Shown here in pieces: positions 2,737-18,591 of a stretch of 20,689 nucleotides of DNA (positions are counted from its first letter, which is position 1; every line of letters starts with the position of its first letter). This stretch comes from a virus. Below the pieces are notes generated by a model. That model was not told where the DNA came from. It made no database searches and saw only the letters and a program-made list of their open reading frames with translations. The translations under genes were made by a program, and so were the position numbers. The stretch lies in IMG/VR virus record IMGVR_UViG_3300048837_001096, positions 1 to 20,689 of that record; one strand, written 5' to 3'.

Positions 2737-4187
2737 ATGTAGGCGTCGAGCAGTCTCCGCGAACGGTCACTCGCTTCGAAGAGATCATTGAGGGTTGGGC
2801 CGGACTTTACCCGCACCGGGGGTAGTGAGTCAACAATCCAGGGGCGGGACATCACGCCATAGCGGACCATGTCGGCTGCGTGATCTTCGGCATCGGTGTC
2901 TACGTCGTCGGGCTTGTCTACGTCGGCGGGGACGGACTCGAGGGTCCGGATGGTATCGACGCAGGAGTCGAGGATGTAGATGAGCGGGGGAAGGAGGCCA
3001 CCCGGCCCATCATTGGGTCCGAGATGCCCGACTAGGTGCTGGCGGACCTTGTCCCAGCCGGATAGGCGGGCATTGTCGGCCCGCCGAAGCATGACGCCGT
3101 TTACAGCGAAGGTCTCCATGAGGGACGGTCCGCCGTCCTTTTTGAACATCGAAGGATCTGCAGCGATGTAGGTGAGATTCTCCGTGCCGGTTCGGAGCTT
3201 GATGCCTTGAGCAACAGGAGCGGCATCGAGGCGCAGCCCTTCGTTGGGCTGGCCGTTGGAGCCGTACCACTCACGATATAGGATAAGAGCACCCCGAGGC
3301 AGACCCCAAGAACCATCAGAAACAGCCCACCAACCCATCGCAAAGGGGGCTGCGTAGCCCCAGTCGAAAGATCCAAATCGGAGAGCGTCTCGGGGAATGA
3401 GGGCTTCGAATTTCTGCGGAAGAACATGGCGTGTCCTTGAGAATTGGGTGAAGTAGGCCCCGACGGGGGACTCCCAGTCACCGAGGAGCCAAGCTCGGAC
3501 GAGGGCTGCGGACCCGGATGTGGCGAGGTTGGCCACGTACTCCGGGTTGTTCTGCATGATCAGGGTGTTATCGGCCAGCCGGCTGGGGATGAACACTCGA
3601 TCGCGGGTCATTGGGGCGAAGCCTTCGACCTCGATGGTGTCGGTCAGGATGGTGTAGCCCTTAGGGGCAGGCTTGATATAGCGGGCGTGGACCCAGGAGT
3701 GGCCGGGACCCCCTGGGTTGCCGGTGAGGCGCATGCCGACGGGAACGCCTTTGGCGGAACGGAGGGTGCCGAAGAGCTTCTTGATCGGGGCGAAGGAAGG
3801 GAAATTGGTAGCTTCCTCAATGTAGACGCGGGTGTAGGAGTGGCCCTGGTACTTGTCGGCGTCGGCGTCTTTGTCGAGGTAGCGGAATTTGAGCCGGGCG
3901 CCCCCCGGCATGACGAAGGAGGTTTTTTGGGTGTTGAACTTCGCCCCAAGGGGCTCGAAGAGGGTCCGGGCCCTCGCGACGACCTCGTCGAGCTGCTGCT
4001 GCTCCCGGCGGAAGAACACCCCGACGGCGTCTTGCTTCCAGGTATCGGAGTGCTCGAGCCAGTCGCCGAGGGAACCTTCGGTCTTCCCGCCGCCTCGGGC
4101 ACCCCCGTAGAAGACTTCGAAGACCGGGCACTGGATGAGGGCCGTCTGTGGCCCTGGCATCGCAGACCAGTGGACGACTTGGCTCAT
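2733..4187 (-). CDS. terL: Terminase large subunit
   Basis: This is the ATPase-nuclease motor that pumps DNA into the prohead and cuts it. From the chosen start the protein has 484 residues. Walker A is GGARGGGKT at about 28-36, Walker B VYIEEA at about 121-126, and an ATPase coupling motif (LTGNPGG) follows at about 154-160. The RuvC-like nuclease half shows SFDWGYA with Asp at about 275, AADPS with Asp at about 344, and the closing DAEDHAADMVRY at about 432-443, giving the expected acidic residues. I chose ATG 4187-4185 because it overlaps the terS stop as ATGA, as at many junctions in this window. An ATG nine codons upstream (4214) would also work. Ribosome-binding signal is weak (ACAAGG against the ATG), which fits translational coupling. 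The middle of the nuclease domain (about 3280-3430) is lower in GC than the rest. Confidence 0.95.
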   Translation of the reverse strand: MSQVVHWSAMPGPQTALIQCPVFEVFYGGARGGGKTEGSLGDWLEHSDTWKQDAVGVFFRREQQQLDEVVARARTLFEPLGAKFNTQKTSFVMPGGARLKFRYLDKDADADKYQGHSYTRVYIEEATNFPSFAPIKKLFGTLRSAKGVPVGMRLTGNPGGPGHSWVHARYIKPAPKGYTILTDTIEVEGFAPMTRDRVFIPSRLADNTLIMQNNPEYVANLATSGSAALVRAWLLGDWESPVGAYFTQFSRTRHVLPQKFEALIPRDALRFGSFDWGYAAPFAMGWWAVSDGSWGLPRGALILYREWYGSNGQPNEGLRLDAAPVAQGIKLRTGTENLTYIAADPSMFKKDGGPSLMETFAVNGVMLRRADNARLSGWDKVRQHLVGHLGPNDGPGGLLPPLIYILDSCVDTIRTLESVPADVDKPDDVDTDAEDHAADMVRYGVMSRPWIVDSLPPVRVKSGPTLNDLFEASDRSRRLLDAYI

Positions 4188-4660
4188 CCTTGTGGAGTGG
4201 CGCGAGTGACCCACTCCTGGGTCGAGGCGATCTTTTGCGGGACCTGAAGAACCACGGCGACGTTGGTGGTGGAGCCGCCCGCGGAGCGGGCTCCATAGCC
4301 GAGGGCATCCGTGGCGAGCTTGGCCGACTTGATCAGGAAGTCGTCGGAGACCGGGAGAGGGGAGGTGAGCTTATTCAGCATCTTGTCCAGGGAGGCGGAG
4401 GCCACCGCCTGGATGCGTTCCTGGATGGAAGCGACGATAACGGGGTCGATTAGCTCGGCCTTGCGTTCGGATAGGCGGGCCTGGAAGGCATCCGACGACA
4501 TGATCTGAGACACCCAGGTCGGGGTCCGATCGAAGATCACCGCGAGGTCGTTCTGCTTGATCGTGGGCTCGGCGATGATCAGATCGATCATAGCGTCGTG
4601 AGTGTACCGGGTCTTGACGATCCCGTTGGTGATTTCTCCAGTCTGTGGGTCGGTAAACAT
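4184..4660 (-). CDS. terS: Terminase small subunit (putative)
   Basis: A 158-residue protein directly before terL. Small terminases bind the packaging-initiation site and load the large subunit. Residues about 24-55 (IDLIIAEPTIKQNDLAVIFD, then RTPTWVSQIMSS) look like a helix-turn-helix of the kind found at the N-terminus of this family. A helical, Ala/Leu-rich middle (about 70-125) could form the oligomerisation core. GGGGGAG lies 6 bases before the ATG, about 20 bases downstream of the predicted start of the promoter at 4688-4716, so this is the first gene of the operon. Small terminases vary greatly in sequence, so the call rests on HTH, size and position. Confidence 0.85.
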   Translation of the reverse strand: MFTDPQTGEITNGIVKTRYTHDAMIDLIIAEPTIKQNDLAVIFDRTPTWVSQIMSSDAFQARLSERKAELIDPVIVASIQERIQAVASASLDKMLNKLTSPLPVSDDFLIKSAKLATDALGYGARSAGGSTTNVAVVLQVPQKIASTQEWVTRATPQG

Positions 4661-4687
4661 GGCGGGCTCCCCCGTGCGATGCCCCGG

Positions 4688-4716
4688 AGTATAGCAGGGA
4701 CGGGGGGTGGAGTCAA
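4688..4716 (-). promoter_or_regulatory. Sigma70-like promoter of the packaging/head operon
   Basis: Read on the minus strand: -35 TTGACT (4716-4711), 17-base spacer, -10 TATACT (4693-4688). Predicted transcription start is near 4681, about 20 bases before the terS ATG. Both boxes are one base from consensus and the spacing is ideal. A repeated TAGTGCC..ATAGGGGCC element (4718-4735) abuts the -35 box on its upstream side, where an activator or repressor could act. Host RNA polymerase could transcribe this operon unaided unless that site is bound. Confidence 0.8.
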
Positions 4717-4717
4717 A

Positions 4718-4735
4718 TAGTGCCGGATAGGGGCC
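4718..4735 (+). repeat. Direct repeat copy 1, TAGTGCC..ATAGGGGCC
   Basis: Reads TAGTGCCGGATAGGGGCC. It matches the copy at 5253-5270 at 16 of 18 bases. It abuts the -35 box of the leftward promoter, so it is placed as an operator. Shorter ATAGGGGC cores recur only in non-coding stretches (5521-5528 and 7391-7398). Confidence 0.65.
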
Positions 4736-5148
4736 ACGGTGAGCCTACCGCCACCCACCCCTGTCCCGGAACCCGGCCCCAGCCGGGTGCCCCCTAGGTG
4801 AGTAATGGCCGGGAATAATACCCCAATTTTGGCCGGGAATTTTTGGAGGGACTCCACGCCCGAACTCGATCCACGTCCGAACTAATACCGCTCCAGCCCA
4901 TGGCCCTGGGACTCCCGCCGCCGCCTCACCGGGGGGGGGCGGTCGGGCCAGGGCCGATGTGACACAGTATGCAAGGCGTGTGCCAGGCCCTGCAGTGGCG
5001 GCGGCGCGACACAAAAGCCCGATGCCCGGCAATGGGGCTAGAAGGCCCGTGGCGCCATTCCGCCGCCCTGGTGTACCCTAGCCCCTTAACATAGTTATCC
5101 CAGGCGCCTACGACTATCCACTGCCCCTGTCATAGGTGCATCCACAGG

Positions 5149-5168
5149 TTATCCACATTGTGGATAAC
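5149..5168. other. Inverted pair of perfect DnaA boxes
   Basis: TTATCCACA at 5149-5157 and TGTGGATAA at 5159-5167 form a perfect dyad around one base, extended to GTTATCCACA and TGTGGATAAC by the flanking bases. TTATCCACA is the high-affinity DnaA box of bacterial oriC. Degenerate boxes lie close by (GCATCCACA at 5138-5146 and TTATCCCAG at 5096-5104). Host DnaA binding is expected from the sequence. Whether it starts replication here or acts as a regulatory site or DnaA sink cannot be told from sequence. Confidence 0.7.
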
Positions 5169-5204
5169 ACACATCTGGTTACAATGTAGGGTTAGTCCCA
5201 GTTG

Positions 5205-5244
5205 ACCGTCGGCGGTACGGGTGGGCCGACGGTGCCCGACCGTC
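5205..5244. repeat. Overlapping inverted repeats built on ACCGTC
   Basis: ACCGTCGGC (5205-5213) pairs perfectly with GCCGACGGT (5225-5233) across an 11-base loop. The second arm also pairs as GACGGT (5228-5233) with ACCGTC (5239-5244) across 5 bases. The two hairpins exclude each other. This may be a protein-binding dyad array or RNA structure. No function is known. Confidence 0.5.
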
Positions 5245-5252
5245 CCCTACCG

Positions 5253-5270
5253 TAGTGCCATATAGGGGCC
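5253..5270 (+). repeat. Direct repeat copy 2, TAGTGCC..ATAGGGGCC
   Basis: Reads TAGTGCCATATAGGGGCC, two differences from the copy at 4718-4735. It lies between the DnaA-box dyad and the T10 tract rather than at a recognisable promoter, so a role in origin structure as well as transcription is possible. Confidence 0.6.
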
Positions 5271-5331
5271 GGATTGACCCCACTGCCACCCAGGTCGATG
5301 TGCGAACCCGGCATCCCCGAACATACGCGAT

Positions 5332-5375
5332 GTGTGGTGTGAATGATACAGTTACAATTTTTTTTTTAACCACAC
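5332..5375. other. AT-rich tract with T10 inside a 7-base inverted repeat
   Basis: Ten consecutive T (5358-5367) follow GTTACAAT, a word also present at 5178-5185 beside the DnaA boxes. GTGTGGT (5332-5338) and ACCACAC (5369-5375) flank the tract. In such a GC-rich sequence this is the most easily melted DNA nearby, about 190 bp from the DnaA dyad, so it is a candidate unwinding element. The role is inferred. Confidence 0.5.
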
Positions 5376-5455
5376 TCCCACCCCCGCGAATAGGGGATTC
5401 CGCTCCCGCGTTATTGGGGACAGTCGCGTATGGGGCACCCCGGCCGGGTGGGGTT

Positions 5456-5528
5456 CCGCCACCGACATGGGTGGCGGTAGCCTACATGCGGCGCCTATAT
5501 GGGGCTATGTGGCCCCTACATAGGGGCA
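5456..5528. repeat. Dyad cluster with recurring TAGGGGC words
   Basis: CCGCCACC (5456-5463) and GGTGGCGG (5470-5477) form a perfect 8-base dyad with a 6-base loop. The following 50 bases hold several overlapping copies in both orientations of TATGGGGC, GGCCCCTACATA and ATAGGGGC (to 5528). They lie about 60-110 bases upstream of the rightward promoter at 5590-5619, a plausible place for operators. Confidence 0.5.
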
Positions 5529-5589
5529 TGTGGGCGGCACCCCTACCGCATCGCGCCCTGGTAGCAGTGAACAAATGCACAAGTCCCCG

Positions 5590-5619
5590 TTGACGCTAGG
5601 GGTTTTAACCGGCGATAAT
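5590..5619 (+). promoter_or_regulatory. Sigma70-like promoter of the rightward early genes
   Basis: -35 TTGACG (5590-5595), 18-base spacer, -10 GATAAT (5614-5619). Predicted start is near 5626, about 30 bases before the ATG at 5657. The spacer ends in CCGGC, matching CCGGN directly before the -10 box in the promoters at 7412, 12849 and 17111. This is probably the first rightward promoter after the control region. Confidence 0.75.
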
Positions 5620-5656
5620 TCGTCCACCGCAATCCCCAATGACCTAGGAGCCCATC

Positions 5657-5908
5657 ATGCAAACCGTTACGTTCACCGAACCGATCACACAAACCGAGAT
5701 GACCCTGGCCGACTATCGGCGTGCTCACGATGCCGATGCTTGGAATTTCATGGATGCCGATGACAAGTCGGTGTTTGTTTACACATTCGGCGGGATCGTC
5801 GGGGGTGCGATCATTGGGGAACAAGCCGATTTCGCCACCCTAACCGAATTCGCCGCCGGTGCGAACGATATCGCGTATCAAATCTGGGATAGCCGCGATT
5901 ATTGGTAA
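5657..5908 (+). CDS. Small acidic protein of unknown function
   Basis: An 83-residue, strongly acidic protein starting MQTVTFTEPITQTEMTLADY and ending in WDSRDYW. A hydrophobic Gly/Ile stretch (about 42-55, 'FGGIVGGAIIGEQ') is too short and polar-flanked to call a membrane segment. TAGGAG lies 7 bases before the ATG, and the same 'aggagcccatc' leader precedes the next gene. First gene of the rightward operon, about 30 bases from its promoter, so it is likely made early. Small acidic early phage proteins are often DNA mimics or host-enzyme inhibitors, but nothing here shows which. I do not recognise the family. Confidence 0.75.
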   Translation: MQTVTFTEPITQTEMTLADYRRAHDADAWNFMDADDKSVFVYTFGGIVGGAIIGEQADFATLTEFAAGANDIAYQIWDSRDYW

Positions 5909-5914
5909 GTCGCC

Positions 5915-5930
5915 TGTTCCACGTGAAACA
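5915..5930. promoter_or_regulatory. parS: parS-like ParB-binding site
   Basis: TGTTCCACGTGAAACA matches all 16 positions of the bacterial chromosomal parS consensus TGTTNCACGTGAAACA. It is a palindrome apart from one base per arm. The exact match is very unlikely by chance in 20 kb. It lies in the 34-base gap between two genes, ending where the Shine-Dalgarno AAAGGAG of the next gene begins. Host ParB would be expected to load and spread from here. The phage also encodes a ParB-fold protein (17257-18591), an alternative ligand. No ParA is seen in this window. Confidence 0.8.
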
Positions 5931-5942
5931 AAGGAGCCCATC

Positions 5943-6158
5943 ATGCAAAACCCTATCGACCTGGATGCACTAGCCGAACGCTATAAAATGACGTGCGAGC
6001 GCGCATCAGCTCGTAGTCGCGAATTCGCATGCACAGTGCATGTGTATGCCATCGTAACCGATATCAACGGATTGCCCCTAGTCACTGGCTACGGCATTAG
6101 TGACTGGTACGATGGATCAACGGTGAGAACCTATGTGGATGGACGATCCACTAACTAG
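5943..6158 (+). CDS. Small protein of unknown function beside parS
   Basis: A 71-residue protein starting MQNPIDLDALAERYKMTCER. The second half ('HVYAIVTDINGLPLVTGYGI', then 'SDWYDGSTVRTYVDG') has alternating hydrophobic residues suggestive of a small beta-sheet. An upstream in-frame ATG (5859) lies inside the preceding gene and is unlikely, because AAAGGAG sits 6 bases before the ATG at 5943. The parS-like site directly precedes that ribosome-binding site, so ParB binding could block or modulate this gene. Family not recognised. Confidence 0.7.
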   Translation: MQNPIDLDALAERYKMTCERASARSREFACTVHVYAIVTDINGLPLVTGYGISDWYDGSTVRTYVDGRSTN

Positions 6159-6170
6159 GGTTTCCCCGTC

Positions 6171-6191
6171 ATGCCCTACGGGTTAGGGCAT
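6171..6191. repeat. Perfect 8-base hairpin
   Basis: ATGCCCTA (6171-6178) and TAGGGCAT (6184-6191) pair perfectly across a 5-base loop, 12 bases after a gene stop. No T-run follows, so a Rho-independent terminator is not supported. It may be an operator or an mRNA-processing or stabilising hairpin. Its arms hold the TAGGGC word that recurs in this genome's spacers. Confidence 0.5.
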
Positions 6192-6222
6192 TGGGGGCAA
6201 TCCGCCCGACAAGGAGATGAGC

Positions 6223-6711
6223 ATGGCACGCGCTGACGCGACGATTCAATCGACCATCGACAACGGCACCCTCACGATTACAGTTGCGGGCTTCCCCCCG
6301 ATTGTGATCGACCCCACGGATTACCCGACCGAGCTAGTAGCCTATGCTGCCCTTCACGGGTTCAAACAGCGCTACGTGGATGCGGCAGCCCTGGGCGCCG
6401 ATGCCACCCCGGCGGAAAAGCATGCCGCCATCACGGCGTTGGTGGACCATCACGCCACCACGGGCGAATGGCGCCGCAATGGCCAAGGCGATGGCACGAC
6501 AGGCGATGGCCTCCTCGTTCGGGCTATCATGGAATATCACGGGATGGACCGTGATGCGGCGCGCACGGCCGTGGCGGGCTTGGACAAGAAGACCCAAGCC
6601 GCACTCCGGGCATCGGCGGAACTGTCCCCGATCATCGAGCGCCTGCGCGTGGCCCGCACGCCGAAGGCATCGGTGGATGTCAGCGCGATCCTCGCAGGCA
6701 TTGGCCGCTAG
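6223..6711 (+). CDS. Conserved phage protein, paralogue of the 10049 gene
   Basis: A 162-residue protein from ATG 6223. That start is preferred because AAGGAG is 6 bases upstream, whereas the ATG at 6217 touches it. The C-terminal third (GLDKKTQAALRASAELSPII, later 'VDVSAILAGIGR') closely matches the product at 10049-10630 (GLDNKTKAALRASAEVGPTV, 'VDTASVLAGLKG'). The N-terminal parts also align loosely: 'NGTLTITV' with 'NGETRTFTV', 'HGFKQRYVDA' with 'HGASQKLGDE', and 'TGEWRRNG' with 'QGEWRVARE'. These are diverged full-length copies. I know such proteins as conserved phage proteins of unknown function. No enzyme motif is visible. Confidence 0.85.
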   Translation: MARADATIQSTIDNGTLTITVAGFPPIVIDPTDYPTELVAYAALHGFKQRYVDAAALGADATPAEKHAAITALVDHHATTGEWRRNGQGDGTTGDGLLVRAIMEYHGMDRDAARTAVAGLDKKTQAALRASAELSPIIERLRVARTPKASVDVSAILAGIGR

Positions 6712-6718
6712 GCCCCCC

Positions 6719-6769
6719 GGCACCCCGGTTAGGGGTGCCTCCCTTAGCCTAGGGCTATCGTGGCCCTAG
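6719..6769. repeat. Two tandem perfect hairpins in a spacer
   Basis: GGCACCCC (6719-6726) pairs with GGGGTGCC (6732-6739), then CTAGGGC (6749-6755) pairs with GCCCTAG (6763-6769). They fill almost the whole space between the gene ending at 6711 and the start at 6786. Neither has a T-run. They may be operators, processing sites or weak terminators. Confidence 0.5.
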
Positions 6770-6785
6770 ACTATAGGAGATGATT

Positions 6786-6998
6786 ATGAAAAGCGGTAGT
6801 GTCTCATTCGGGTCGATAGTGCCAGAATTTTGTGTCAGGTTCGATTTTCGCGAGCTATCCGCACGCGATCAAACAACACTATTTAATGCCTTGGCAGAAC
6901 ATCTCGGCATTACGGATGCCACGCATGCACGCCCGGACGAATCCTATCAAGTGCTGTGGAAAGAGATGATGGGGCGTGTTTGGGGAGCCGACAAATGA
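6786..6998 (+). CDS. Small protein of unknown function
   Basis: A 70-residue protein starting MKSGSVSFGSIVPEFCVRFD. The ATG at 6786 is chosen over 6780 because AGGAG (6775-6779) leaves a 6-base spacer to it and none to the earlier ATG. Predicted mixed alpha/beta, with an amphipathic helix at about 20-35. Its stop overlaps the next ATG (ATGA), so the two are probably co-translated. The DNA is lower in GC than the neighbouring 6223 gene. Not recognised. Confidence 0.65.
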   Translation: MKSGSVSFGSIVPEFCVRFDFRELSARDQTTLFNALAEHLGITDATHARPDESYQVLWKEMMGRVWGADK

Positions 6999-7237
6999 CA
7001 ATCCAACTACACACTATCCGCCACGGTAAATCCAAGGCGGCACTACAGGCCGAATTGAACGCGATGCCCGATCGCGTCCGGTTTTGGAACCCTAGCCCCT
7101 TCAGCGACAACCGTAGCGGGTTTTTCAGTGGTTCCGAGATGAAGCCAGGTGAATCCTTCGCATGCGTCTTGGACCCGGACACGCGGCGCCGATTTGCTAT
7201 CGTGGCGCGAACGGCCAGCGGCTTCCGCGTCACCTAG
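6995..7237 (+). CDS. Small basic protein of unknown function
   Basis: An 80-residue basic protein starting MTIQLHTIRHGKSKAALQAE. Start at 6995 is set by the ATGA overlap with the preceding stop; an in-frame ATG at 6956 lies inside that gene. The C-terminal part ('ESFACVLDPDTRRRFAIVAR') suggests a beta-hairpin with a basic surface. A nucleic-acid role is possible but unsupported by a motif. Last gene before a 240-base spacer holding operator-like repeats and a promoter. Confidence 0.65.
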   Translation: MTIQLHTIRHGKSKAALQAELNAMPDRVRFWNPSPFSDNRSGFFSGSEMKPGESFACVLDPDTRRRFAIVARTASGFRVT

Positions 7238-7281
7238 TCGGGCATGCGCGTAGGGGCATGGGGGCATCCGCCCCCTATAGT

Positions 7282-7379
7282 CGTTTCCCGGCCGTTTCCC
7301 GCCCCGTGGCGCCGTCCGACACCGGGCACCCTATGCAGGGGCGCCCACGGGTTCCGAACCGGGAAACGGGCCGTTTCCC
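7282..7379. promoter_or_regulatory. Operator-like array of CGTTTCCC half-sites
   Basis: Two direct half-sites CGTTTCCC (7282-7289 and 7293-7300) are 11 bp apart. An inverted pair forms the palindrome GGGAAACGGGCCGTTTCCC (7361-7379), again with an 11-bp half-site step. A hairpin with a 1-base loop is implausible, so DNA binding by a dimeric regulator is the natural reading. The palindrome lies 33 bp upstream of the promoter at 7412. TAGGGGC (7392-7398) with a facing CCCCTA (7406-7411) lies between them. Confidence 0.55.
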
Positions 7380-7411
7380 CATGCGGCGCCATAGGGGCTA
7401 GAGCCCCCCTA

Positions 7412-7441
7412 TTGCACCCTGCGAACCCGCCCGGTTATAAT
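7412..7441 (+). promoter_or_regulatory. Sigma70-like promoter
   Basis: -35 TTGCAC (7412-7417), 18-base spacer, perfect -10 TATAAT (7436-7441). Predicted start near 7448, 30 bases before the ATG at 7478, which has AGGAG 6 bases upstream. CCGGT precedes the -10 box, as in the family of promoters in this window. The operator-like array at 7282-7379 lies just upstream. Confidence 0.75.
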
Positions 7442-7477
7442 GACCACGTTATCCCCGTGAACCAATAGGAGCCACCT

Positions 7478-7624
7478 ATGACCATCGATCACGATGCACA
7501 CATGCACCTTGACCCATCGAACCGGCCCCGGTGGATGGAGCCATCCCCCTACACCCGCAGGCGCACGGACCCGAAGCCCCCATTGTGGCTCCGCATCGCC
7601 CGGTGGGTTTGGGGGTGGCTCTGA
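7478..7624 (+). CDS. 48-residue basic, tryptophan-ended small protein
   Basis: A short reading frame with strong initiation signals: AGGAG, 6-base spacer and ATG, about 30 bases downstream of a near-consensus promoter. Its stop is fused to the next start as TGATG (7622-7626). The protein begins MTIDHDAHMHLDPSNRPRWM, has a basic middle (TRRRTDPKP), and ends WLRIARWVWGWL, an amphipathic Trp-rich tail that could lie on a membrane or bind a partner. Function unknown. It could act partly as a leader peptide that couples translation to the gene after it. Confidence 0.6.
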   Translation: MTIDHDAHMHLDPSNRPRWMEPSPYTRRRTDPKPPLWLRIARWVWGWL

Positions 7625-8019
7625 TGCCCCGCATCCGCCCCCTCGAGACCTACCCCTATCGGCAATTCCTGGCGGTATTCACAAAGGTAGCCGAAACCCG
7701 GCAGCCCTTCCTAATCGCGTGCACCCGGCCGCAGGCCGCATCCCTCCGAGGCGAACTCTACGCCTTCCGTCGGGCCTGCGAGAACCAAGCCCAATCGGCC
7801 CAGGTTATGGGCATTGACGTGGCGCAGCTGCGCGACGTGGCCTTCCGCATCGTAGCCGAAGGGCTGGAGGCGTGCCATCAATCCAGCCTGCAAGGGCCGG
7901 CGTTGATCGAGGCGGCGCTCGGAGGCACCCCGCTCGCACCGAAGACAGCGGCCCAGCTAGCGCTGGAACGGCTCCAAGGTATGGGCCTACAACCAGGGGC
8001 ACCCGATGAGCGGGAATAG
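7624..8019 (+). CDS. Helical protein of unknown function
   Basis: A 131-residue protein starting MPRIRPLETYPYRQFLAVFT. Start fixed by TGATG coupling to the 48-residue gene. Mostly alpha-helical, rich in Ala, Arg and Gln. The segment 'FLIACTRPQAASLRGELYAF' then 'RRACENQAQSAQ' resembles small phage proteins with an Arg-rich helix pair. The C-terminal 35 residues, Pro/Ala-rich, overlap the next gene by 14 bases. No catalytic motif. Not recognised. Confidence 0.75.
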   Translation: MPRIRPLETYPYRQFLAVFTKVAETRQPFLIACTRPQAASLRGELYAFRRACENQAQSAQVMGIDVAQLRDVAFRIVAEGLEACHQSSLQGPALIEAALGGTPLAPKTAAQLALERLQGMGLQPGAPDERE

Positions 8020-8317
8020 GCCATTCGCCCAGGTATCGGCCTATCCGGCCGGCTTCCTCGCGGCCATCCAGAATGGTGGAGGGGTGTTCTATGCCGCTGA
8101 CCTGCCATGGACACCGACCACTTCGGCGAAGCGGTTCCGCCAACTCCTTGCCTTGCTACGCAAGCAACCAGGGCACCCGGCCTGTGCAAACGCAGGCCAT
8201 CGCTGGCGGGTTGAGGTTACGGCCAAGGCCCTCGTCACGTCAATGAACCAGCGCGGGGTGCCTGCAGCCTACCCGCATGGGCTTTTGATCGAGGCTGCGC
8301 TGGAAGGACAAACATGA
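8006..8317 (+). CDS. Small basic protein of unknown function
   Basis: A 103-residue protein starting MSGNRPFAQVSAYPAGFLAA. Two adjacent motifs, 'TSAKRFRQLLALLRKQPGHP' and 'HRWRVEVTAKALVTSMNQRG', give a basic helix followed by a strand-helix, so DNA or RNA binding is conceivable. It overlaps the upstream gene by 14 bases and the downstream gene by 4. GC content is like the phage backbone and unlike the gene that follows, so it is the last backbone gene before the accessory cassette. Confidence 0.75.
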   Translation: MSGNRPFAQVSAYPAGFLAAIQNGGGVFYAADLPWTPTTSAKRFRQLLALLRKQPGHPACANAGHRWRVEVTAKALVTSMNQRGVPAAYPHGLLIEAALEGQT

Positions 8318-9153
8318 GCACGGACAAGGTGCGCGAGGCGCTGGCGAAGATCCGCGAATACATCGAGGGCAACTCGGTCTACGGCCGTCCGCACATTCTG
8401 GAGGATTTTCTGCCCATCGTGGAAGAGGCCGCAGCCCGCGAAGCGTTATCTGCGCAGCCTGCAGAGCCGGTGGCGTGGCGCTATCACTCACCCAGCACTT
8501 GGCGCCTTGCCAGCAAGCCAGCGCTGCAGGCTTACACCGACATTTTGCCGGGCTTTGAGCAGGAGCCGCTGTTTGCCACGCAGCCTGCGCCGAGCGTGCC
8601 AGATCTGCCGGACCCAAATCAGCTTGAATCTTGGCGCACTGCCGCAGACGAGCTGTTGCGCAATCCGCAGCACATGCCAACTATCCGGTCAGCAGCGTTT
8701 CAACTTCAGAACGCTTACCTGTTTGCCCGCAAGCTCGCAGCCCTCGCATCCCAGGCCGAGAAACACGCTGCCGAGCTAGCCAAGCTGCGGCAGGGTGAGC
8801 CGGTGGCCGGGTGGCGACTACTGAAGGACACCACCTACGCAGAGCGCTCTTGGCCTGAAGATGCGAGCCACGAAAACGGCTGCTATTCAAACACATGCTG
8901 CCACTGCGGGCGCGCGTTCACGGGCCACAAGCGCAGACCGTCTTGCAAGGCGTGTAGCGCCGCCTCCACTCCACCAGTCCAGCCCCTGCGTGAGGCGCTG
9001 CAGCCGCTGAGCGATGCAGACTTCCTGCGGTGCGCTGATGAGAATTTCCCTGACTGGCGGGTTGACATTCAGGAACGCTTTGTAACCGAATTAGGCCACG
9101 CAATCGAACGCCTCATCACCGAGCGCATGAGCGCAGCAAAGGAGACGAAGTGA
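8314..9153 (+). CDS. Accessory phage protein with zinc-finger-like cysteines
   Basis: A 279-residue protein starting MSTDKVREALAKIREYIEGN. Two related segments, 'QPAEPVAWRYHSP' (about 49-60) and 'RQGEPVAGWRLLKD' (about 160-172), resemble modular early proteins of lambdoid and related temperate phages (Ea22-like in style). Cys195-x2-Cys198 and Cys211-x2-Cys214 enclose 'AFTGHKRRPS', a treble-clef or zinc-finger-like element seen in several phage proteins. Codon use is less GC-rich than upstream. First of three genes joined by GTGA overlaps. The role is unknown; such genes are usually dispensable and move between phages. Confidence 0.75.
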   Translation: MSTDKVREALAKIREYIEGNSVYGRPHILEDFLPIVEEAAAREALSAQPAEPVAWRYHSPSTWRLASKPALQAYTDILPGFEQEPLFATQPAPSVPDLPDPNQLESWRTAADELLRNPQHMPTIRSAAFQLQNAYLFARKLAALASQAEKHAAELAKLRQGEPVAGWRLLKDTTYAERSWPEDASHENGCYSNTCCHCGRAFTGHKRRPSCKACSAASTPPVQPLREALQPLSDADFLRCADENFPDWRVDIQERFVTELGHAIERLITERMSAAKETK

Positions 9154-10048: not shown

Positions 10049-10630
10049 ATGGCAAAGACCCCTGTTGAGATCAAGACCGTCACAATGGATGACGGCCGTA
10101 CCGTCGAGTTCAGCGGCAAGAAGCGCCTGGACAAGAGCATCATCATCGAAGGCGACACCGTCAAGGTCCGCCTCGACTTCGTGAATGGCGAAACCCGCAC
10201 CTTCACCGTGCCCCCGAGCCTCCTGCTCCAATGCGCAGGCCACGGCGCCAGCCAGAAGCTGGGCGACGAGATCTCCGATGTCACTGACATTGAGGACGCG
10301 ATCGAGGCGATCGACCAGCTGATGGCCCGCCTGGAACAGGGCGAGTGGCGCGTGGCCCGCGAAGGCGGCACCTCGATGGCCGGCGCCTCGATTCTGGCGA
10401 AGGCCTTGGTGGAAGTCACCGGCCAGCCGATCGCCGTGGTGCGCCAGTACCTCACCGGCCTGGACAACAAGACCAAGGCGGCCCTCCGCGCCTCGGCCGA
10501 AGTCGGCCCGACGGTGCAACGGCTGGAAGCCGAGAAGGCAGCCCGTGCCGCCGAGCGTGGCAAGTCGGCCCCGACCGTGGACACCGCCTCCGTGCTGGCT
10601 GGCCTGAAGGGCGTTGCCGTTCCGGCCTGA
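10049..10630 (+). CDS. Conserved phage protein, paralogue of the 6223 gene
   Basis: A 193-residue protein starting MAKTPVEIKTVTMDDGRTVE, with AAGGAG 6 bases upstream. Residues about 5-55 look like a small beta domain ('GRTVEFSGKKRLDKSIIIEG', 'VKVRLDFVNGETRTFTVP'). A helical middle follows, ending in GLDNKTKAALRASAEVGPTV and the tail VDTASVLAGLKG. I recognise it as a conserved protein of many proteobacterial phages with no known function. Strong codon bias, good start signal, own leader and own terminator suggest high expression as a single-gene unit. The tail is shared with the products at 6223 and 13107. Confidence 0.9.
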   Translation: MAKTPVEIKTVTMDDGRTVEFSGKKRLDKSIIIEGDTVKVRLDFVNGETRTFTVPPSLLLQCAGHGASQKLGDEISDVTDIEDAIEAIDQLMARLEQGEWRVAREGGTSMAGASILAKALVEVTGQPIAVVRQYLTGLDNKTKAALRASAEVGPTVQRLEAEKAARAAERGKSAPTVDTASVLAGLKGVAVPA

Positions 10631-15762: not shown

Positions 15763-16613
15763 CCTTCTCACCTGCCACTTCCGCCCTCCCCGGCCCTAAC
15801 GTCCTCCTCATGGGGCCAGCCGGCACCGGCAAAACCTACTCCATCGCCACCCTTGTCGAGTCCGGCATCGAGGTGTTCTACCTCTCCATCGAACAGGGCA
15901 TCGAGTCCCTCCTCGGCTACTGGACGGACGCAGGCAAACCGATCCCGGACAACCTCCACTGGCACAAGATCGACCCGCCGAAGGCCTCGTTCAAAGAACT
16001 CGCCGAGACGGCCCTCAAAGTCAACACGCAGAGCTATGAAACCCTTGGCAAAGCCGTCGATCTCAACCGACATACTCACAATCTCTTCATCAAGGTCAAC
16101 GAATCATTTTTTGATTTCCCAGACGATCGTACTGGCACCAAATTCGGCTCCGTCGATACTTGGGGACCAGATCGCGCAGTTGTCGTTGATGGCCTCACAG
16201 GCTTGTCTCGTGCAGCTATGTCCCTCACAGTCGGGGGTAAGCCCATACGAAATCCAGGAGATTACGGTATCGCTCAAGGCCAGCTTGAGGGGTTCCTCCG
16301 ACTCATCTGCGACCACTGCCGCTGCTGGTTCGTCCTCCTCGCCCACGTAGAGAAGGAGATCGACCCCGTAGCCGGTGGCATGAAGATCACCGTCGCCACG
16401 ATCGGGAAGGCCCTCCCACCACTCATCCCTCCTATGTTCTCCGACGTAATCCTCGCTTCGCGCGAGGGGAACAAGTGGGCCTGGAACACCGCCGCTGCCA
16501 ACGTAGACACGAAGGCCCGCAACGTCCCCTGGCAGGACGGCATGGCGCCGGACTTCCGGCCACTGTACGACAAATGGGCATCGCGGGCAGCCGCGATGTC
16601 TGCATCCAAATAA
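15759..16613 (+). CDS. RecA-like AAA ATPase, Sak4-type
   Basis: A 284-residue P-loop ATPase. Walker A is GPAGTGKT (19-26) and Walker B is 'AVVVDGLTGLS' with Asp144. A later 'CRCWFVLLAHVEKEIDPVAG' strand ending in His fits sensor positions of the RecA-like AAA_24/Sak4 group. Such phage proteins act in single-strand annealing and recombination, often with an SSB-like partner encoded nearby, as here. The start overlaps the MazG-like stop. Codons for about residues 95-170 (16040-16265) are much more AT-rich than either end of the gene, so the centre may have come from another phage by recombination. Sak4-type is the best call; a helicase loader is less likely. Confidence 0.85.
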   Translation: MTFSPATSALPGPNVLLMGPAGTGKTYSIATLVESGIEVFYLSIEQGIESLLGYWTDAGKPIPDNLHWHKIDPPKASFKELAETALKVNTQSYETLGKAVDLNRHTHNLFIKVNESFFDFPDDRTGTKFGSVDTWGPDRAVVVDGLTGLSRAAMSLTVGGKPIRNPGDYGIAQGQLEGFLRLICDHCRCWFVLLAHVEKEIDPVAGGMKITVATIGKALPPLIPPMFSDVILASREGNKWAWNTAAANVDTKARNVPWQDGMAPDFRPLYDKWASRAAAMSASK

Positions 16614-17256: not shown

Positions 17257-18591
17257 ATGCGCCCCAAATCCGCCGCCGAAATTATCGTTCCCCCCGGCCG
17301 TCAGCGCCAAGCCTTCGACGGTCCAGCCCTGCTGGAACTAGCCCAGTCGATCAAGACACACGGGCTGTTCCACGCAATCCAGCTACGCCAGGACGGTCAG
17401 ACCCTCGTCTCGGGCGAGCGCCGCCTCCGGGCCATCCGAGAGCACTTGCTCCCCTTCGGGCACCGGATCATGTATAACGGGGAGAATCTCCCCATCGGCT
17501 TCATCCCCACGGTCGAAGTTTCCTCCGACGACGCGCTCGCGCTCGAGGAAATTGAACTCCACGAGAACCTGATCCGCAAAGACCTGACATGGCAGGAACA
17601 TGCTGAAGCCACAGCCCGGCTGCATAACCTGCGGCAAGCACAGAAGGTCGCCGTAGGCGGGGTGCCGGTTCCGCAGACCTTCGCCGACACCGCCCGGGAG
17701 ATTGTCGGCCCCGACGCCAACGCCAACGACCAGTCCACAGTCCGGACTGAAGTCCTCGTCGCTGCCCATATGGACAAGCCCGAGGTGGCCAAGGCCCCGG
17801 ACCTGAAGTCTGCCTTCAAAGCCCTCAAGCGGATCGAGGAGGCCCAGCGGAACCGGGACCTCGCGATTGCCGTCGGGGAGACCTTCTCAGTTGGGGATCA
17901 CAAGATCTTCAATGCCAACTGCCTCACTTGGATGCTGGACCCTCAGTGGCATGAGAAGTTCGATGTCATTCTGACTGATCCCCCCTATGGCATGAACGCC
18001 CAGGACTTTGGAGACGGGGCCGGTCGACTCGAAGGCATCGACCATTCCTACGACGATTCCTATGAGGCCTGGAAATCCCTCATGGCCCAGTGGTCTGTTC
18101 TCGCTTTCACCGTCGCAAAGCCGCAAGCACACGCCTATGTCTGGTGCGACATCGACAACTTCCACGAGCTACGCGAGATGATGCGCAAGGCCGGCTGGTA
18201 CGTCTTCCGCACCCCCCTCACGAACTACAAGCAAAACAGTGGCCGGGTGCCCCTCCCAGACGAAGGCCCCCGTCGGCAATCCGAGTGGTGCCTCTACGCA
18301 ATCAAAGGGCATAAGCGGGTCAACTACATCGCCTCGGACGTGATCGTCACGGGCGCCGACGAACAGCTCTCCCACGGCGCCCAGAAGCCCGTCGCCCTCT
18401 ACGACGATCTCCTCCGCCGTTCTGTTAAACCGGGCGACTGGGTACTCGACACCTTCGCGGGCACGGGTACAATCCTCGCGGCGGCCCATCCCCTCAAGTG
18501 TGTGGCAGTGGCGGTCGAACAGAATCCGACCTACTACGGGATCTGCCTACAGCGGCTGGATGGCCTCGAGAAGCAAGGGAAGCTGATATGA
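17257..18591 (+). CDS. ParB-fold / DNA methyltransferase fusion
   Basis: A 444-residue fusion. Residues about 8-125 are a ParB N-terminal domain: 'LAQSIKTHGLFHAIQLRQDG', GERRLRA (53-59) and ENLIRKDL (103-110) match the three CTP-binding motifs of ParB. About 140-190 ('TFADTAREIVG', 'STVRTEVLVAAHMDKPEV') looks like the following helix-turn-helix region. Residues about 205-440 are an amino-methyltransferase: DPPY at 241-244, 'QKPVALYDDLLRRSVKPGDW' and then FAGTGT at 400-405. Catalytic motif before SAM motif indicates the beta class (N6-adenine or N4-cytosine). Phages use such enzymes to evade host restriction or regulate DNA. The ParB part may give it site choice or loading. The leader lacks a Shine-Dalgarno, and a terminator-like hairpin precedes it. 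Confidence 0.92.
   Translation: MRPKSAAEIIVPPGRQRQAFDGPALLELAQSIKTHGLFHAIQLRQDGQTLVSGERRLRAIREHLLPFGHRIMYNGENLPIGFIPTVEVSSDDALALEEIELHENLIRKDLTWQEHAEATARLHNLRQAQKVAVGGVPVPQTFADTAREIVGPDANANDQSTVRTEVLVAAHMDKPEVAKAPDLKSAFKALKRIEEAQRNRDLAIAVGETFSVGDHKIFNANCLTWMLDPQWHEKFDVILTDPPYGMNAQDFGDGAGRLEGIDHSYDDSYEAWKSLMAQWSVLAFTVAKPQAHAYVWCDIDNFHELREMMRKAGWYVFRTPLTNYKQNSGRVPLPDEGPRRQSEWCLYAIKGHKRVNYIASDVIVTGADEQLSHGAQKPVALYDDLLRRSVKPGDWVLDTFAGTGTILAAAHPLKCVAVAVEQNPTYYGICLQRLDGLEKQGKLI

Follow-up and report, generated by a model that had tools for sequence, protein, structure and literature searches.

A chromosome-type parS site in the early region of a phage, its displaced copy in a relative, and a possible role for host ParB

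What might a parS site of the kind found on bacterial chromosomes be doing on the genome of a virus, in the short gap between two small early genes? The question is raised by a virus record of 20,689 bases (the window, by which we mean the whole stretch of DNA that was analysed), in which TGTTCCACGTGAAACA at positions 5915-5930 of the plus strand was found to match the degenerate form TGTTNCACGTGAAACA at all specified positions, with 0 mismatches. This confirmed the exact 16-position match claimed by the first-pass annotation of this DNA. The chance expectation of an exact parS was 9.5e-6 for the window (from its second-order Markov model), and nowhere else did the sequence come within 3 mismatches of TGTTNCACGTGAAACA, apart from the opposite strand of the same place (1 mismatch). 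As a 16-bp palindrome of the TGTTNCACGTGAAACA form, the site belongs with the chromosomal-type parS (Spo0J/ParB sites), the consensus of which is given as TGTTTCACGTGAAACA in the section of PMC10197239 that describes them. It matches this degenerate consensus exactly and differs from chromosomal parS in being a putative ParB site on a virus genome, single and without parAB. The features needed below are listed here in window coordinates; L134 is a related viral contig.

4661..5656, no strand: non-coding, origin-like region from which late and early genes diverge; it contains a T-tract that L134 also has (5354-5368) and an inverted pair of DnaA-box-like sites
5590..5619, plus strand: promoter-like site TTGACG-18-GATAAT, with a counterpart in L134, TTGACA-17-TATTAT, read by eye
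5657..5908, plus strand: small ORF 5' of parS, 83 aa, without a family match and without a relative in L134 (tblastn)
5915..5930, plus strand: parS TGTTCCACGTGAAACA, where host ParB is presumed to load; an exact consensus match with an identical 16-mer at L134:2765-2780
5931..5945, plus strand: one base of spacing, then the Shine-Dalgarno AGGAG (5932-5936) of the next ORF and its ATG start (5943-5945)
5943..6158, plus strand: small ORF 3' of parS, 71 aa, without a convincing family match and without a relative in L134 (tblastn)
17257..18591, plus strand: ParB_N - N6_N4 methyltransferase fusion, with no HTH_ParB detected, an unlikely reader of parS

The site takes up 16 nt of a 34-nt gap that runs from the stop codon TAA (5906-5908) to the ATG at 5943, with a single base separating its end at 5930 from the AGGAG at 5932-5936. 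A local assembly error is unlikely, because L003 and L005, IMG/VR contigs that differ in metagenome id, both carry parS in the same context at 99.9% identity to the window; an overlapping record of 32 kb holds one parS, as the 20.7 kb window does. Contact with the ribosome-binding site had been read by the first-pass annotation as a sign of selection, which proved a weak argument, as the sequence AGGAGCCCATCATGCAAA, an 18-nt identical repeat at 5646-5663 and 5932-5949, covers the ribosome-binding site and start codon of two adjoining small genes, and its copy at 5646-5663, before the preceding gene, has no parS ahead of it (window scan, up to 3 mismatches).

The minus strand of the window encodes a portal (phrog_12082, E 3.4e-175), a large terminase and a weakly matched small terminase (E 0.046), and the plus strand encodes MazG-like, exonuclease-like and Sak4-like proteins together with the ParB_N-N6_N4 methyltransferase fusion; further genes, on the overlapping contig of 32 kb, encode a DNA polymerase, a holin, a primase-type protein and head and tail proteins. 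The closest portals in the phage collection were those of the Myxococcus phages Mx8 and Mx9 and of Stenotrophomonas phage BUCT555 (33-35%), and window positions 4600-9000, used as a DNA query against the same collection, gave no match. Among the best 80 terminase matches listed from bacterial genomes, the closest came from five Caulobacteraceae MAGs (46-50%), with other proteobacteria at 44-49%, and these neighbours give a weak hint of the host. Six of eight genomes with near terminases had TGTTTCACGTGAAACA sites, in which N was always T and never the C of the window, and the backward control gave 0. tRNAs were looked for and none was found, and the window contained no site of the form TTAA-N7-TTAA, which is the CtrA pattern. 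By profile search, neither Phage_integrase nor AAA_31 (ParA-type) was matched in four records of the phage group, leaving the plasmid-like prophage suggested by the first-pass annotation without direct support for a lysogenic plasmid state; a temperate life is still compatible with these results, which cover one recombinase family (Phage_integrase) and one ParA family (AAA_31) in four records. Searches with the 71-aa and 164-aa proteins brought up no relatives past L003, L005 and L134, except for a 27-residue match in L130. Two genes of the window, at 6217-6711 and 10049-10630, are paralogous (34% identity, common motif LDxKxxAAxRASxE); the former has a 75% relative in L134 and the latter a sub-threshold DUF6391 match.

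A search of relatives for the 16-mer, which had been proposed as a check, gave a divided answer. In L134, the terminase of which is 83% identical in amino acids to that of the window and the aligned blocks of which are 72-81% identical in nucleotides, the identical 16-mer was kept (chance expectation of an exact parS in L134, 3.4e-6) but had moved. It lies at 2765-2780, in a non-coding region between early and late genes that is the counterpart of the origin-like region of the window (4661..5656), and is far from any gene start. The L134 site precedes the shared T-tract by 157 bp and the promoter-like site by 398 bp, whereas the window site follows the T-tract by 561 bp and the promoter-like site by 325 bp. 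Of the 57 exact matches that the window and L134 share in the same orientation (14 nt or longer), parS was the sole break of collinearity in the early region; the other out-of-register matches were a 16-mer at 3379 in the terminase gene and 14-mers at 16113 and 17131, and two matches were in opposite orientation (15 and 14 nt, the first at 5058). No relative of the 83-aa and 71-aa ORFs that flank the window site was found in L134 (tblastn, E up to 1; the positive control, the 164-aa gene nearby, was recovered at 74%). Because L134 has the identical 16-mer at another position, it appears to be parS itself that is under selection, rather than a ribosome-binding site or a fixed operator, the relocation being known from one relative. 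The shift between the two genomes looks like the picture expected of binding-site turnover under selection.

At up to 2 mismatches, parS was absent from the records of seven other relatives, which are mostly fragments (L135/G003, of 29 kb, L136, L137, L138, L139, L140 and the doubtful L130); those that count as real negatives are G003, with its 29 kb, and, for the 1.9-2.3 kb that they cover upstream of the large terminase, L137 and L136. In a further 80 distant loci, 1.15 Mb in all with their host flanks, there were 0 exact parS and one site at a single mismatch. The site is not universal in the phage lineage of the window, though most of the records are fragments, and the claim that it has been selected is strengthened by the moved copy in L134 and tempered by these seven absences. 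In the alignment, the L134 parS falls where the window has a pair of perfect inverted DnaA-box-like sites at 5149-5167 (TTATCCACA / TGTGGATAA), with one base between them and about 190 bp before the shared T-tract; the pair is a possible replication origin using host DnaA.

To whom such a site would be addressed was examined with the HTH_ParB profile, which matches 9 of 14 control genomes. It gave no match in 53 parS-bearing viral records, many of them fragments (50 of the 120 IMG/VR loci and three records of the window's phage group, G000, G001 and G004), and none in 50 control records. Because the parS-bearing records have no detectable canonical ParB, host ParB is the likely reader of the phage site, as the first-pass annotation had supposed, and the loci can be argued not to be host parAB regions. 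A partition system of the phage's own, of the P1-like ParABS type, was rejected as far as the records go (HTH_ParB in 0 of the 53, including G000, G001 and G004; AAA_31 in 0 of 4). The phage ParB-methyltransferase, which had also been put forward as binding parS, fared poorly: in this protein Pfam names only ParB_N and methyltransferase-type families, with no HTH_ParB match, and it is an unlikely reader, a divergent HTH being conceivable. Fusions of a ParB fold to a methyltransferase are known in phages, where the passages of PMC12704722 on them propose roles in anti-defence or phage-host interaction.

Chromosome-type parS was then found to be widespread in phages. A phage collection of 50,697 records, not dereplicated, was searched with parS followed by AAGGAG, and 303 records matched in the TGTTTC version and 171 in the TGTTCC version (274 and 161 at 99% identity or above), against 9 records for a control query in which the central CG was changed to GC (5 at 99% or above, 3 spanning the full 16-mer). 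Records are redundant within these counts, the T search including 90 from Listeria and 49 from Microbacterium and the C search 36 from Pseudomonas and 33 from Arthrobacter. The enrichment of chromosome-type parS in phages is strong and specific to the core. Carriers include phi29, PZA and phages of Arthrobacter, Gordonia, Ruegeria, Clavibacter, Stenotrophomonas and Lactobacillus; in Stenotrophomonas phage BUCT548 parS stands directly before GGAG and an ATG, which is the layout of the window.

In IMG/VR, which is redundant and may include misassigned host DNA, at least 120 loci were found for parS and at least 120 for the core-swapped control, and composition was compared among those listed. 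The variable base N was T at 78, C at 38, G at 4 and A at 2 of the 120 parS loci listed (sum 122, as some loci hold two kinds), and T at 13, C at 31, G at 44 and A at 32 of the 120 control loci listed. More than one site was present at 19 of the 120 parS loci and at 0 of the 120 control loci, and sites lay inside ORFs of at least 150 aa in 59 of 149 cases for parS and 99 of 120 for the control, again among the loci listed. With related contigs treated as independent, Fisher tests gave p = 6e-11 for C versus A+G, 1.8e-6 for multiple sites and 5e-13 for ORF location.

The placement seen in the window also recurs, as parS within 0-6 nt of AGGAG was found in at least 120 IMG/VR stretches and the control core in 0. 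Across 132 such sites in 125 loci (L003/L005-type loci and the window included), N was T at 100, C at 30 and G at 2; a start codon with an ORF of at least 30 aa followed 99 of the 132, which form 67 clusters of downstream proteins, and was lacking at 33. parS abutted AGGAG in 5 of the first 120 IMG/VR parS loci listed, so that this layout is that of a minority, and short gaps in compact genomes may explain it. One IMG/VR contig of 116,662 bases (L360) has three parS-AGGAG units before different genes. Three other viral contigs (L030, L073 and L098) have three to five parS each and may be phage or misassigned origin regions.

If the site served to regulate the genes beside it, ParB at parS would spread over the early region and damp the adjacent early genes until ParB was diluted or the right stage of the cell cycle was reached. 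The window site lies among early ORFs and follows the promoter-like site by 325 bp, which would suit such a role, as would the recurrence of parS-AGGAG layouts in at least 120 IMG/VR stretches and the repression of promoters adjoining parS3 and parS4 of Pseudomonas aeruginosa that the title of PMC5521831 reports. We nevertheless consider regulation unlikely, with the L134 site upstream rather than downstream of the promoter-like site and nowhere near a gene start, three of the four phi29 sites inside genes (10, 15 and 17) and just 5 of the 120 IMG/VR loci listed having parS against AGGAG. The silencing of neighbouring genes that the first-pass annotation had offered is weakened by the same observation that the L134 parS does not adjoin a gene start. 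An action in RNA, with the palindrome forming an mRNA hairpin just before the ribosome-binding site, is scarcely tenable: the perfect palindrome can fold, at -3.9 kcal/mol, but the window variant does not (0 kcal/mol, with z = 0.10 for the 46-nt context), a control palindrome with an AGCT core folds equally well (-3.9) yet occurs 0 times next to AGGAG in IMG/VR, and the L134 parS is not in a leader adjoining a start codon. The leader hairpin was rejected as a candidate, no stable transcript hairpin being obtained.

Alternatively, the site might act as a decoy, a replicating phage multiplying parS, pulling ParB from the host origin and disturbing segregation. The number of parS copies would climb with phage DNA, and phages with several sites do occur (19 of the 120 IMG/VR loci listed, and four sites in phi29); we think this quite improbable for a phage that has one parS, whether the 20.7 kb window or the overlapping record of 32 kb is counted, and many bacteria suffer little from losing ParB. 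More doubtful again is that the match is due to chance, or is the operator of an unknown phage repressor resembling parS. A large scan meets some 16-mers by chance, the background of N = A or G (6 IMG/VR loci listed) suggests such an origin for a few among the 38 loci with N = C, and seven relatives' records have no parS; either reading would, however, leave both the identical 16-mer elsewhere in L134 and the same 16 bp in many unrelated phages to be accounted for.

The reading we prefer, at a probability of roughly 60%, is that the phage has acquired a chromosomal-type parS and kept it under selection, and that host ParB loads on it, so that the phage DNA is served by the host ParABS system, with a benefit in retention. 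ParB binds parS, shuts as a CTP clamp, spreads outward and forms a platform for ParA, in the outline given by the relevant part of PMC12704722. After injection, host ParB with CTP would load at parS and slide onto the adjacent phage DNA, presumably coating the early, origin-like region. The phage genome would in this way become a client of host ParABS, and possibly of SMC too, and its DNA would be held with the nucleoid or origin region and passed to daughter cells when infection stalls. A benefit to the whole genome seems likelier than the silencing of one gene because parS is on opposite sides of the promoter-like site in the window and L134 and is mostly intragenic in phi29; the genome-level role is favoured over regulation, this position independence being the one basis for the preference.

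Precedent for such a role comes from phi29, the annotation of which names no ParB and no ParA. We counted four exact TGTTCCACGTGAAACA sites in it: genes 10, 15 and 17 each contain one, and the fourth follows closely on gene 16. According to the passage of PMC9437464 on this phage, citing Meijer 2005, Spo0A puts the lytic cycle on hold, and the genome enters the spore by means of Spo0J. The window's phage resembles phi29 in having its own DNA polymerase, an exact TGTTCCACGTGAAACA site and neither ParB nor ParA detected in its records, and it can be placed with phi29 as a phage bearing parS without an HTH-bearing ParB, from records that may be an incomplete genome. It differs in the number of sites, four in phi29 against one, in phage type and in giving no sign of sporulation control, the host of phi29 being a spore former; Caulobacteraceae, the source of the closest terminases listed, are not known to form spores. 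By analogy, the Spo0J-dependent entrapment of phi29 in spores may be seen as a precedent and a special case. The statement of the first-pass annotation that phage use of a host parS is little described is roughly right, with the qualifications that phi29 set a precedent in print (the same passage of PMC9437464) and that parS-bearing phages are common. Host-type parS on a phage was known already from phi29, with a role for Spo0J; what is new, as far as literature searches go, is that the site has moved within a lineage other than that of phi29 and that chromosomal parS is spread so broadly across phages. No paper giving a phage-wide survey of chromosomal parS was found in a literature search that took in neither most subscription journals nor bioRxiv preprints.

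Two other systems invite comparison. SGI1 carries parS mimics that bind the ParB of a plasmid and stabilise SGI1 (PMC10954446, in its account of these sites). The likeness is that of a mobile element with ParB sites for a partition system, there the IncC plasmid ParABS, that it does not itself encode; the difference is that the lender for SGI1 is a plasmid and was shown experimentally, whereas the lender for the window's phage would be a chromosome and is proposed from sequence. Alphaproteobacterial phages carry CtrA sites, discussed as 'lytic deferment' in the pages of PMC9437464 given to them. There, too, phages that are not related have converged on sites for a DNA-binding protein of the host cell cycle, but CtrA is a transcription factor and ParB a sliding CTP clamp for segregation, and the window is without the TTAA-N7-TTAA motif.

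More tentatively, with somewhat less than even confidence, capture of host parS may be a general, convergent strategy among phages of many ParABS hosts. Such phages would have ParB loading sites but no ParB gene, and an infection that stalls or runs slowly would be tethered to the host chromosome and segregate with it in a ParB-borne carrier state; where the host has no ParABS, as in enterobacteria, its phages would be without the sites. Enterobacterial chromosomes are not known to carry ParABS. Phages of Escherichia, Klebsiella, Salmonella and Shigella were not seen among the 240 matches listed (60 from each of four overlapping searches), and enterobacterial genera account for about 2,149 records of the phage collection in two capsid searches alone (T4 gp23 and T7 gp10); the tallies leave 21 and 20 organism groups unnamed (at most 7 and at most 4 records each), which could hide a few enterobacterial phages. 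Drawn from listed matches, and with the E. coli control genome itself matching HTH_ParB, the apparent lack of parS from enterobacterial phages is suggestive.

A carrier state maintained through ParB, if true, would need no integrase and no plasmid genes and would provide a mechanism for pseudolysogeny without integration, with infected cells bearing a segregational burden. The count of parS would then serve as a sequence test for which virulent phages can persist, and ParB-fluorescent host strains could reveal natural infections by parS phages. If host ParB loads on phage genomes, ParB-parS would constitute an interface between phage and host, and the pattern is open to test in laboratory pairs such as phi29 and Bacillus subtilis. 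In T5-like phages the DNA of the terminal repeat enters the cell first, and ParB could load at once on a parS placed there; phiPsa300 (L146) and Vibrio phage phi 3 (L147) each have an exact parS inside the annotated terminal repeat.
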